From Tateyamaria omphalii (lineage in GTDB: Bacteria > Pseudomonadota > Alphaproteobacteria > Rhodobacterales > Rhodobacteraceae), in contig NZ_BMWT01000002.1 of assembly GCF_014651375.1 (NCBI RefSeq), positions 687,477 through 751,476 of the forward strand: a stretch of 64,000 nucleotides of DNA, in the 5' to 3' direction. Made by a program: the position numbers and the translations under genes. The stretch's first letter is position 1, and every line of letters starts with the position of its first letter. The notes below the pieces were generated by a model. That model was not told where the DNA came from and did not search any database. It worked only from the letters and a program-made list of their open reading frames with translations. Positions 8,110 through 12,114 of this stretch are shown piece by piece.

Positions 8110-8150
8110 CGCAGAGCTTTGCAACATCTGCACACTAGTTTGCAACAATT

Positions 8151-8183
8151 GGGCCGAAATTCGCGTGGATTTCGGCCCTTTTT
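8151..8183 (+). terminator. rho-independent terminator of thrS
   Basis: GGGCCGAAAT (8151-8160) pairs perfectly with ATTTCGGCCC (8169-8178), an 8-base loop between, followed by TTTTT. This is a textbook intrinsic terminator 42 bases after the thrS stop. Confidence 0.9.
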
Positions 8184-8300
8184 CTAACAACTGATAACGG
8201 CTCTGTGACACACGCGCTCGTGGGTGGTAACTTACCATCAGGCCGACCTATGTAAGGCTCACGACCGTACTGTAACCGATATCCGAAAGGGACGTTGAAG

Positions 8301-8609
8301 ATGTCGAAGACCATGAAATCCGTTGCGATTGTTGGCGCAGTTGCCGCTGCAATGACCGCACACTCCACAACCACTGCATCCGCTGCGGGCAAAGAGAAAT
8401 GCTATGGCATTTCGTTGGCTGGTGAAAACGACTGCGCCGCAGGCGCTGGCACCACCTGCGCCGGCACGTCGACTGTAGACTATCAGGGCAACGCCTGGAC
8501 ACTTGTTGACGCAGGCACCTGCGCCGAGATCGAACTGCCCGCACTGGCGGACGGCACGCCGCGTCAGGGTTCGCTGGAAGAGCTCGACCGCGACCTGCCC
8601 TCTGCATAA
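8301..8609 (+). CDS. bufA1: bufferin-type precursor (DUF2282, BufA1 family)
   Basis: 102 residues. Residues 1-29 form a Sec signal peptide ([20 protein letters not shown], cleavage after ASA). The mature part carries four Cys in the DUF2282 pattern: [31 protein letters not shown], and [14 protein letters not shown]2282 proteins with an adjacent MNIO enzyme are now known as bufferins, RiPPs whose Cys are modified to bind copper in the periplasm. The ATG at 8301 has AAAGGGA seven bases upstream; an in-frame TTG at 8295 is less likely. First gene of the four-gene unit to 10878. Modification of this particular peptide is inferred from its neighbours. Confidence 0.88.
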
Positions 8610-8686
8610 GGCGACGTCACACGCCTGCGCCGGACCCCACGCGGGCCCGGCGCACTATTTCCCAAAGACGCCCCGGAGGGCAAGAC

Positions 8687-9547
8687 ATGCTCGATGCGAC
8701 ATTGACACCGCCTCGCCTGCCGTCAGCCCCCGGCGTTGGGTACAAAGCCCAGCATTTCACCGAATTGCGGGCCGATCCCGGTCCGGTCAAATGGCTGGAA
8801 ATTCACGCAGAAAACTACATGGGCGACGGTGGTCGACCACACGCGCAATTGGGCGCGCTGCGTGATGATTTTGCCATTTCTGTGCATGGCGTCGGTCTGT
8901 CGATCGGTGGCGAAGGTCGCCTTGATCCGGATCACCTTGCCCGTTTGCAGCACCTTGTTGGTTGGCTGGAACCCGCCAGCTTTTCCGAGCATCTGGCCTG
9001 GTCCACCCATGGCGCCGAGTTTCTGGATGACCTGCTGCCCCTGCCCTATACCGACGCGACCCTGACCCGCGTTGCGGATCACATAGACGAGGTGCAAGAG
9101 GCGCTCGGTCGTCGGATGCTGCTTGAGAACCCATCAAGCTACCTGGCTTTTGCCGAAAGCACGTGGTCCGAGACGGATTTCCTGGCCGAATTGGTGCGCC
9201 GCACAGGCTGCGGCCTATTGCTGGACGTGAACAACGTGTTCATCTCGGCCACCAATCTTGGCTACACGCCGCAATCCTATCTGGATGCCTATCCCCTGTC
9301 CGCCGTCGGTGAAATCCATATTGGCGGCCATGACGAGGATGAGGATGACCATGGCGCGCCGCTGCTGATCGACAGCCACGGGCGCGAAGCGGCCGAGCCC
9401 GTCTGGGCCTTGCTGGATCATGCGCTGGCGGGCACCGGTCCTGCCCCCGTTCTGGTCGAATGGGACAACGATGTTCCAGACTGGCCCACCCTGCGTGCCG
9501 AAGCTGATCGCGCTGCGGCCGCGCTGGCCACGATCAACGCCGGATAG
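8687..9547 (+). CDS. bufB: MNIO family (DUF692) bufferin maturase
   Basis: 286 residues, a TIM-barrel multinuclear non-heme iron oxidase. Conserved blocks are visible in order: [78 protein letters not shown] and PVLVEWDND, which supply the His, Glu and Asp iron ligands. By family knowledge it converts precursor Cys residues to heterocycles such as thiooxazole. It stands 77 bases after the precursor and 4 bases before the DUF2063 partner. A ribosome site (GGAGGGCAAG) precedes the ATG. Confidence 0.92.
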
Positions 9548-9551
9548 CGCC

Positions 9552-10310
9552 ATGGCAGCCTCGCAATCCGACTTTCGCGCGGCCCTTCTTGACCCCGACC
9601 GCCCCGTTCCGGACGGCCTGACGGACGGAGACGGAAACCCCACGACCCGCCGATTTTCTGTCTACCGCAACAATGTGACGGTCGCCCTGATCGACGCGAT
9701 GCGCACAGGCTTTCCAGTTTTGGCGAAACTGTTGGGCGATCAGAATTTTGATCAGTTGGCCCGGCTTTTTGCGCGCGCCCATCCGCCTGCATCCCCGCTG
9801 ATGATGCACTATGGAGAGGCGCTGCCTGCCTTTCTCGACGGGTTCGAGCCGCTGGCCCATATCGGCTATCTTTCGGATGTCGCACAACTGGAATTGGCGG
9901 TGCGCCAATCCTATCACGCGGCAGACAGCACACCGCTGGATGCGGCCCGGCTTGGCGCAGTTGCCCCCGATGTGTTGATGCGCACCCGCCTTCGGCTGGC
10001 CCCTGCCGTGCAATTCTTGTCGTCCCGCTGGCCGATCGTGGATATCTGGCGGTACAACATGGAAAACGGCGCGCAGAAGCCGCGTGGGATTGCGCAATCT
10101 GTCTTGATCACCCGCACGGAATTCGACCCCGAGCGCCATGCTATCTCGGACGCACAATTTGCATGGCTCAGTGCCATTCTTGCTGATGCCACATTGGAAG
10201 AGGCCGGAGATGCGGCCACGGAGATGGACCCCGAGTTTGACCTTGGCCCGTTGCTGACACTTCTGATCCAGCACAACGCCCTTACTGACATGATCACCCC
10301 AAAGGAATGA
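9552..10310 (+). CDS. bufC: HvfC/BufC family (DUF2063) MNIO partner protein
   Basis: 252 residues. The N-terminal DUF2063 helical domain is clear: SQSDFRAALLDPDRPVP, RRFSVYRNNVTVALIDAMRTGFPVLAKLLG, FARAHPPASPLMMHYGEALPAFL and YLSDVAQLELAVRQSYHA. By analogy with other MNIO systems it works as the precursor-recognition partner of the DUF692 enzyme. I start at the ATG at 9552, just after the bufB stop, because the DUF2063 fold begins there; the frame extends upstream within bufB without a ribosome site. The C-terminal half is poorly conserved in the family. Confidence 0.88.
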   Translation: MAASQSDFRAALLDPDRPVPDGLTDGDGNPTTRRFSVYRNNVTVALIDAMRTGFPVLAKLLGDQNFDQLARLFARAHPPASPLMMHYGEALPAFLDGFEPLAHIGYLSDVAQLELAVRQSYHAADSTPLDAARLGAVAPDVLMRTRLRLAPAVQFLSSRWPIVDIWRYNMENGAQKPRGIAQSVLITRTEFDPERHAISDAQFAWLSAILADATLEEAGDAATEMDPEFDLGPLLTLLIQHNALTDMITPKE

Positions 10311-10314
10311 CCCA

Positions 10315-10878
10315 ATGACCGCCCTTTCCCGTGTGCACACCGCAATCTTTGGCCCAATTGAACGCGCTGACTGGTTGCTGCCGACCCTTGCCCGTTTTCT
10401 GTTTGCCGCAGTGCTGGCGGTCTATTTCTGGGTGTCCGGCATGACAAAGCTGGGTGACGGGATCTTTGGCGTGTTCCAACCGTCGTTGGGGGCCTATGCA
10501 CAGATCTTTCCCAAGGTGATGGAGAATGTGGGCTATGACGTTACCCAGCTAAGCCTGTATCACTGGGCGGTTGTCACCGCCGGGACTGTGGCCGAGTTCA
10601 TCCTGCCCTTGTTGATCATCATTGGTCTGTTCACGCGCCTCGCTTCGCTGGGCATGATCGGCTTCATTGTGGTGCAGTCGCTGACCGACTTGAACGGGCA
10701 TGACAAATGGGGTGATGGGCTTGTTTTGGGCGCGTGGTTCGACGCGCCGTCCAACAGCCTGATCATGGACCAGCGTTCGTTGTGGGTGTTCCTGCTGCTG
10801 GTGCTGGTGGCCAAAGGGGCCGGGCCGCTGTCTTTTGACCGTGCCCTTGCCCCGAAACCTGCGTCTGACGCCGCTTAG
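10315..10878 (+). CDS. DoxX family membrane protein of bufferin operon
   Basis: 187 residues with four predicted membrane segments (about 25-45, 75-100, 105-125, 145-165). The DoxX signature is recognisable: RFLFAAVLAVYFWVSGMTKL, AEFILPLLIIIGLFTRLASLGMIGFIVVQ and DQRSLWVFLLLVLVAKGAGPLSFDRAL. DoxX proteins accompany MNIO operons (HvfD type), probably in the redox or membrane step, though the role is not settled. It starts 4 bases after bufC and overlaps the convergent ArsC-like gene by 4 bases. Confidence 0.88.
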   Translation: MTALSRVHTAIFGPIERADWLLPTLARFLFAAVLAVYFWVSGMTKLGDGIFGVFQPSLGAYAQIFPKVMENVGYDVTQLSLYHWAVVTAGTVAEFILPLLIIIGLFTRLASLGMIGFIVVQSLTDLNGHDKWGDGLVLGAWFDAPSNSLIMDQRSLWVFLLLVLVAKGAGPLSFDRALAPKPASDAA

Positions 10879-11192
10879 GTCACGCCAAGCGCGGTCTGCA
10901 CGTCCTTGGTCCAACCAAGATGCAGGCTGTCGCCATCCGCAACCAGCGGCCGTTTCATCAGTGTGGGGTGCACTGCAAGCAAATCCTGCGGTGCGCCTTG
11001 CCGCTCAGCATCGGAGAGGCCGCGCCACGTGGTGGACCTTGTATTCACCAGTTTGACGCCAAATGTCGCAAGGGCCGCGGCCATCACATCCGCGGGTACA
11101 CCATCGGCCCGAACGTCCACAAAACGCGCCTCTGGCAACGCCTTGATTGCCTTGCGACAGGTGTCGCATGTTTTCAATCCGTATATTTCCAT
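10875..11192 (-). CDS. ArsC/Spx family protein
   Basis: 105 residues with the thioredoxin-like ArsC fold. The N-terminal YGLKTCDTCRKAIKAL gives a CxxC motif at about residues 9-12, typical of the Yffb/ArsC-like group rather than the single-Cys arsenate reductase. RPLVADGDSLHLGWTKDVQ is the usual C-terminal block. The ATG at 11192 follows GAGGTGG and begins the fold; an upstream in-frame start adds 12 unlikely residues. A thiol-dependent reductase or regulatory role is possible; arsenate as substrate is not supported by neighbours. Confidence 0.8.
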   Translation of the reverse strand: MEIYGLKTCDTCRKAIKALPEARFVDVRADGVPADVMAAALATFGVKLVNTRSTTWRGLSDAERQGAPQDLLAVHPTLMKRPLVADGDSLHLGWTKDVQTALGVT

Positions 11193-11657: not shown

Positions 11658-11945
11658 TCAGTTGAACGAGCAGCCCTTGGCGCCGACCGGGCAGCTGCTG
11701 TGGCGCGCGCGATGCCGTTTCTTGGCCGCTGCGTGAGCCAGTGCCTGTTGATAGCTGATGCCTTGGTTGGGACGACCACAGCAGATGGTGCCATCGATTG
11801 TCACGGGTTGCAGCCCGGTCGGGCAGTAATTGTGCTTGCTGTGAAAGGCGTAGATCTTGGGACCCGCCTGATCCTGCGCCAAGGCCGCCCCAGCCCCGAG
11901 AAGCGCAAAGGCCGCAGCGGCCGTCATCACTTTGGTGAATGGCAT
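11658..11945 (-). CDS. small secreted Cys-containing protein
   Basis: 95 residues. A signal peptide covers residues 1-24 (MPFTKVMTAAAAFALLGAGA, cleavage after ALA). The mature part has Cys at NYCPTG, TICCGRP, SSCPVG and KGCSF and a basic middle (HAAAKKRHRARHS), suggesting disulfides or metal binding in the periplasm. The ATG at 11945 has GAGGGAAG just upstream; a start four codons earlier is less likely. No family is recognised and the neighbours do not point to a function. Confidence 0.65.
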   Translation of the reverse strand: MPFTKVMTAAAAFALLGAGAALAQDQAGPKIYAFHSKHNYCPTGLQPVTIDGTICCGRPNQGISYQQALAHAAAKKRHRARHSSCPVGAKGCSFN

Positions 11946-12114
11946 ATCTTCCCTCATTCCTTCAACACACCACGAAATCTATGCAAACGATGCCGTTTGG
12001 CTGGTCACAAGTCCAGTTTTTTTGGCGGATCACACCACCGCACGCATGATTTACTCGGAATTTGCCGGTTTGTGGCTAGGCTGGAAACAGTCACCACAAC
12101 CCACGGGTATACCG

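Follow-up and report, generated by a model that had tools for sequence, protein, structure and literature searches.

The 64,000-nucleotide stretch of Tateyamaria omphalii DNA analysed here (the window) contains four consecutive plus-strand genes, which very probably constitute a chromosomal bufferin-1 (Buf1/DUF2282) operon with the chemistry, export and promoter of its own proposed below. The first gene, bufA (8301..8609), encodes a DUF2282 bufferin-1 precursor of 102 aa. It is followed by bufB (8687..9547), encoding an MNIO (DUF692) bufferin maturase of 286 aa, by bufC (9552..10310), encoding a DUF2063 MNIO partner of 252 aa, and by the gene of a DoxX-family membrane protein of 187 aa (10315..10878), with intergenic gaps of 77, 4 and 4 bases. 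All four products match their Pfam families: DUF2282 at 86.4 bits (cut-off 22.4), MbnB_TglH_ChrH at 332.6 bits (cut-off 25), DUF2063 at 93.2 bits (cut-off 27.2) and DoxX at 34.3 bits (cut-off 23.6). The ORF coordinates and these matches bear out the four genes with 4-77 base spacing described in a sequence-only reading of this DNA. The assignments draw further on alignment for BufA, NCBIfam models and conserved metal-site residues for BufB, a structure model and fold search for BufC, and conserved gene order for the DoxX protein. The ORF list placed the start of the DUF2063 gene at 9420; as this position falls within the MNIO gene, the ATG at 9552, 4 nt past the bufB stop, was taken as the start of bufC.

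The bufferin 1 operon of Caulobacter (CCNA_03363-03366 / CC3254-CC3257) consists of these four families in identical order, a likeness based on family content. The available text of PMC12452194 describes the Buf1 bufferins as copper-binding peptides of the DUF2282 family, in which the central cysteines are converted to thiooxazoles and a disulphide joins the outer two; growth in copper is aided by the characterised Buf1 product, itself a copper binder (PMC12452194). The gig operon of Cupriavidus metallidurans (PMC8224329) and Legionella pneumophila, hosts from other classes of Pseudomonadota, is described as the same cluster, and is likened to the present one by description. The captophorins of the repeat type (fontiphorin, oxazolin, and gonophorin) likewise combine an MNIO, a DUF2063 partner and a Cys-containing precursor, and their products carry 5-thiooxazole (Gadgil 2026, PMC13097082). 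However, as far as the accessible sections of that paper describe them, their precursors are Lys-Cys repeat peptides, whereas the precursor here is a DUF2282 protein.

BufA contains four cysteines, Cys34, Cys45, Cys53 and Cys74, arranged as C-x10-C-x7-C-x20-C; the spacing C-x11-C-x6-C given earlier was a misreading. All four are invariant in 40/40 aligned precursors (the window, 34 from its best 80 relatives, and five from a DUF2282 scan of 148 genomes). The spacing is the same in 80/80 parsed loci, window included, a uniformity that is partly selected, since the loci were picked by patterns containing the first or third cysteine and ranked by similarity. Outside the family the middle gap varies by eye, being x8 in loci L006 and L007 and x6 in L016. 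Residues 1-30 of BufA, read by eye, comprise lysines, a hydrophobic stretch and ASA at 26-28, resembling a Sec signal. The structure model of BufA is poor (pLDDT 58.8), and a sequence search of the PDB with BufA gave a best match of E 0.58. Two further features of these precursors may be recorded. A C-terminal tail, SLxxLxRDLP (about 8570-8603 in bufA), is present in 69/80 precursors; by eye, eight precursors from beyond the family lack it, as do some family members (L004, L005, L010). At the second cysteine, NGC or NAC replaces NDC in the family precursors L183, L191, L192 and L193.

BufB scores 360 bits against the NCBIfam model NF050167 (MNIO_BufB; cut-off 310), and the models for four other MNIO subfamilies, HvfB, ApyH, MbnB and ChrH, all remain below their own cut-offs, with 216 bits against 360 for the HvfB equivalog and 53 bits against 325 for MbnB. 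Residues H102, E147, D180, H211, D229, H231 and E258 are kept in 79/79 sequences, window included, and H67, N182 and H215 in 78/79 each. These positions align with the solved chain 3bww and, over shorter matches, with 8hci, 7dz9 and 7tcr. We take them to correspond to the iron ligands in solved MNIO enzymes (MbnB/TglH structures). The enzyme had been called intact beforehand, and loss of the MNIO metal ligands was looked for as a finding that would speak against the bufferin reading; in alignments of the 79 sequences the ligand residues are retained. D260 is invariant among the same 79 sequences as well, and we take it as a candidate counterpart of FonB-Asp249, the residue proposed as catalytic base in the available text on fontiphorin (PMC13097082).

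The partner protein is recognised mainly by its fold. The structure model of BufC has a mean pLDDT of 95.2, and a fold search with it returned three PDB matches at E <=0.001: 8hci_A and 8hi7_A, both TglHI entries, and 3dee (NGO1945); the MbnC chain 7fc0_C followed at E 1.7. NGO1945 (3DEE) is the protein named PME1 by Gadgil and colleagues (PMC13097082). By sequence, BufC found no significant PDB match (best E 0.62). TglHI and MbnBC thus share the MNIO metal-site residues and the partner fold with BufB and BufC, but differ in substrates and products. On the NCBI models named for the oxazolin branch, BufC reaches 48 bits (HvfC, cut-off 142) and the DoxX protein 28.5 bits (HvfX, cut-off 80), and these scores below cut-off were counted against the bufferin reading. 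An oxazolin/HvfA-type cluster was itself considered and rejected, as the HvfB, HvfC and HvfX models are all below cut-off, and a methanobactin cluster was rejected on the MbnB score. The BufB equivalog, the DUF2282 precursor, the intact MNIO site, the partner model and the DoxX gene together support the earlier identification as a bufferin system.

By analogy with relatives and with the published Buf1 products, BufA would be made in the cytosol, and BufB with its partner BufC would oxidise Cys45 and Cys53 to 5-thiooxazoles, each losing four H. Sec would then export the modified peptide, Cys34 and Cys74 would form a disulphide, and the mature peptide would bind excess copper in the periplasm, with DoxX as a probable accessory membrane protein. 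The earlier expectation that some or all cysteines are modified is narrowed here, following the published Buf1 scheme (PMC12452194), to a predicted modification of the two central ones, with the outer two in a disulphide. In Caulobacter, copper raises the four families by 1.4 to 6.3 log2 units under each of the four conditions in Table 2, with one DoxX value reaching significance only when the fold-change cut-off is dropped, and mutation of sigF causes sensitivity to copper (PMC8224329). It is unlikely, but should be weighed, that an operon of this type answers mainly to another metal or stress, such as gold, silver, mercury, chromate or cadmium. The accessible parts of the literature report that dichromate and cadmium too elicit a response of the Caulobacter operon via sigma-F (PMC3511200), that gold and silver as well as copper induce the gig cluster of Cupriavidus (PMC8224329), and that MerC-bufferin fusions exist (PMC12452194). 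Against this, the characterised Buf1 product is the copper-binding one that helps growth in copper, and BufA of the window keeps the four Buf1 cysteines.

The sequence-only reading had proposed the operon as a good new representative, a view that does not hold: it is a typical Buf1 cluster, ordinary in its family and one of hundreds. DUF2282 was found in 87/148 related genomes, own included; in the own genome, DUF2282 and MNIO are each represented by a single gene (profile searches, E 0.001). A precursor alignment scan of one genome per species gave at least 579 relatives among at least 590 pattern matches, of which the 80 best were retained; among the matches listed, the nearest relative is from Tateyamaria omphalii, at 93%. 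The order thrS-bufA-bufB-bufC-doxX followed by an ArsC-family gene on the opposite strand is the same in 66/81 loci, window included, which makes the gene set more than a chance association; these loci are the window and its best 80 precursor matches, hence close relatives, and some of the other 15 end at contig ends. One locus (L095) lacks a parsable bufA start, so that 80 of the 81 enter the analyses of upstream regions. The loci and genomes named here by L and G numbers share some species.

What is new is the control region, which appears to differ from that of Caulobacter; the operon itself is of a known and widely shared kind. An intrinsic terminator follows thrS on the plus strand (8151..8183), with a 12-pair stem (8151-8178), a 4-nt loop and a T5 tail; the fold of 8145-8184 has -20.9 kcal/mol. 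This terminator separates the operon from thrS. Behind it, on the same strand, lies a 23-bp element (8205..8227), a putative regulator site, whose consensus GTGANNCAC-N6-GTGANTGG was read from the upstream sequences of relatives and whose window copy, GTGACACACGCGCTCGTGGGTGG, has one mismatch. The sequence TATGTA (8249..8254, plus strand), 44 nt from the element start, resembles a -10 box of the form TANNNT and, judging by its conservation, may be part of the promoter. TANNNT occurs at +43/+44 from the element start in 37/57 non-redundant loci, compared with about 1.4 expected from shuffles, and is absent from that position in the other 20/57; the shuffles used for this box and for the weight matrix preserve base composition only. 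A sigma-70 consensus scan gave no sites. Transcription would thus start from the operon's own promoter, past the thrS terminator, at a TANNNT -10 box behind a conserved element that is probably bound by a regulator.

Among relatives, exact copies of the element are found mostly before bufA. Scored by weight matrix, it is present in 67/71 thrS-linked loci and 1/9 others, a result that is partly circular because the matrix was trained on the loci it scored. A search of 100 family genomes for the exact pattern gave 14 matches in 14 genomes and none for the reversed pattern; 11/14 sit upstream of a bufA start, and those in L143, L146 and L155 do not. Within the genus (20 genomes), 10/12 exact copies are at bufA, and with up to one mismatch there are 38 matches versus 13 for the reversed pattern. 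The own genome holds five one-mismatch copies, one before bufA and four elsewhere; when up to two mismatches are allowed there are 37, versus 19 for the reversed pattern. As the window copy is mismatched and further copies lie elsewhere in the own genome, the specificity of the element rests on the relatives. A score above 13 is reached by 15/19 bufA genes of the genus; G006, G013, G015 and G016 score below 13, though all are thrS-linked, and to judge from these sequences the element is decayed or lost there. These four genus members with a poor element lowered our confidence both in the operon reading and in that of a dedicated regulator.

The preference for thrS-linked loci could also indicate that the conserved stretch is a feature of an RNA or of the thrS 3' end instead of a protein site, a view to which we assign a low probability, slightly below that given to a non-copper stimulus. 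It would agree with a hairpin that lies about 56 nt past the element start, at the inferred transcript start, in many relatives (L033, L044, L084, L086, L093). The mean z of this hairpin is -1.04 over 58 loci versus -0.14 in a control stretch. However, the window itself has no such leader hairpin, and the window element sits after the thrS terminator and ahead of the -10-like box. Moreover, by eye, sigma-F-type bufA promoters also contain the TCAC-N6-GTGA part of the element, and most of these promoters have no adjacent thrS. A protein site remains the preferred reading of the element.

In Caulobacter the four families belong to the sigma-F targets; their promoter, GTAACC-N16-CGAA, was mapped by 5' RACE, and NrsF acts as negative regulator (PMC3511200, available text). 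Tateyamaria omphalii differs in having no NrsF match and another conserved promoter region, and the driver of its operon is accordingly unlikely to be the sigma-F/NrsF pair. The search of the own genome (4.75 Mb, E 0.001) gave no NrsF match, with Caulobacter vibrioides recovered as control; NrsF is present in 22/148 genomes and in 0/20 of the genus. The bufA rows of the family, 63 collected by regex and four by hand (L183, L191, L192 and L193, which failed the regex because of their NGC or NAC), were compared with thrS linkage judged within 1.5 kb and with L019 counted twice. None of the 48 thrS-linked rows is from an NrsF genome; the element scores above 13 in 41 of these rows and below 13 in 7. 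The eight rows from NrsF genomes show the converse: all have GTAA[CT]-N16-18-CG upstream, with the GTAA box 75-89 nt before the ATG, none is thrS-linked, and none exceeds 13 for the element (highest 12.1). The other 11 rows have neither thrS nor NrsF, and three of these score above 13.

No GTAACC-N16-CGAA promoter lies at the usual distance before bufA of the window, where only GTAACC-N15-CGTT is found, at 8272-8296. A sigma-F-like factor driving the operon from this site, with the upstream element incidental, is the least probable of the alternatives and very unlikely. The site resembles the mapped Caulobacter promoter (PMC3511200), and the GTAA[CT]-N16-18-CG regex matches at 8272 in the window and in other members of the genus. 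However, this placement would leave only 4 nt between the end of the -10 and the ATG, with the -10 overlapping the ribosome site, whereas in the eight NrsF rows the GTAA box lies 75-89 nt upstream of the ATG, and an NrsF match is lacking in the own genome and in the 19 other genomes of the genus. The regex is also loose, matching 11 family rows without NrsF (the window and 10 further ones), and so proves little alone. The conserved element with its -10-like box is hence preferred as the control region of the operon.

The two kinds of promoter have one component in common. In the eight NrsF rows a TCAC-N6-GTGA dyad, exact or with 1-2 letters changed, was seen by eye at a distance of 5-6 nt ahead of GTAA, except in G061, where it is about 10 nt more distant. 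The same form was seen by eye, again 5-6 nt ahead of GTAA, in seven sigma-F-like loci (L059, L074, L089, L096, L099, L105, and L106), two of them thrS-linked; it was not seen by eye in the sigma-F-type loci outside the family (G094, G121, G128, G131). A search of 198 family genomes for the exact dyad joined to the sigma-F promoter pattern gave 8 matches, versus 2 for the reversed control, of which 5 are at bufA, 1 is before a DoxX-like gene (by eye) and 2 are elsewhere. The match in L228 places the dyad and a sigma-F-like promoter 82 nt upstream of this gene resembling DoxX by eye. From these comparisons the dyad would seem to predate the loss of sigma-F control and to have been retained, with GTGA added, when the operon moved behind thrS with a TANNNT promoter.

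Regulator binding is the simplest explanation of the dyad, and we infer a putative regulator with few targets that binds the conserved element. Lying immediately before the -35 region or overlapping it, the site is placed as might be expected for an activator, although the regulator may instead be a repressor. Tentatively, and at somewhat less than even probability, we propose that in roseobacters the bufferin operon left sigma-F/NrsF for a dedicated DNA-binding regulator with the bufferin promoter as its main or only target. The site, with its TCAC-N6-GTGA core, would predate the switch and represent an older second layer of control, possibly by directly sensing copper or the modified peptide. 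No obvious gene for a dedicated regulator was noticed by eye among the ORF groups shared by at least 12 of 80 loci within about 5 kb; 13 loci share an ArsR-like ORF ahead of thrS and 64 a cold-shock protein, and a further shared group is the ArsC/Spx-like gene, which may be a candidate. A literature search, with most subscription journals outside its reach, found no paper on a roseobacter bufferin promoter, and the available text of two roseobacter copper papers (PMC10723695, PMC6308992) holds nothing on these genes. The 23-bp element offers a starting point for finding out how bufferin production may be turned on in marine bacteria that lack NrsF.

Some observations concern the genes downstream of the operon. 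The ArsC/Spx-like protein is encoded on the minus strand (10878-11189), convergent with doxX, and lies beside the bufferin operon in 67/81 loci. Further downstream, a small Cys-rich protein (11658-11957, minus strand) counts 98 aa without its first codon and shows, by eye, CPTGLQPV and ICCG motifs and a signal-like start; a Pfam search with it gave no match, and a group of ORFs resembling it occurs in 14/80 loci. Between doxX and arsC, 41/80 loci (for example L038), the window not among them, carry a minus-strand ORF of about 122 aa that appears by eye to be a membrane protein.
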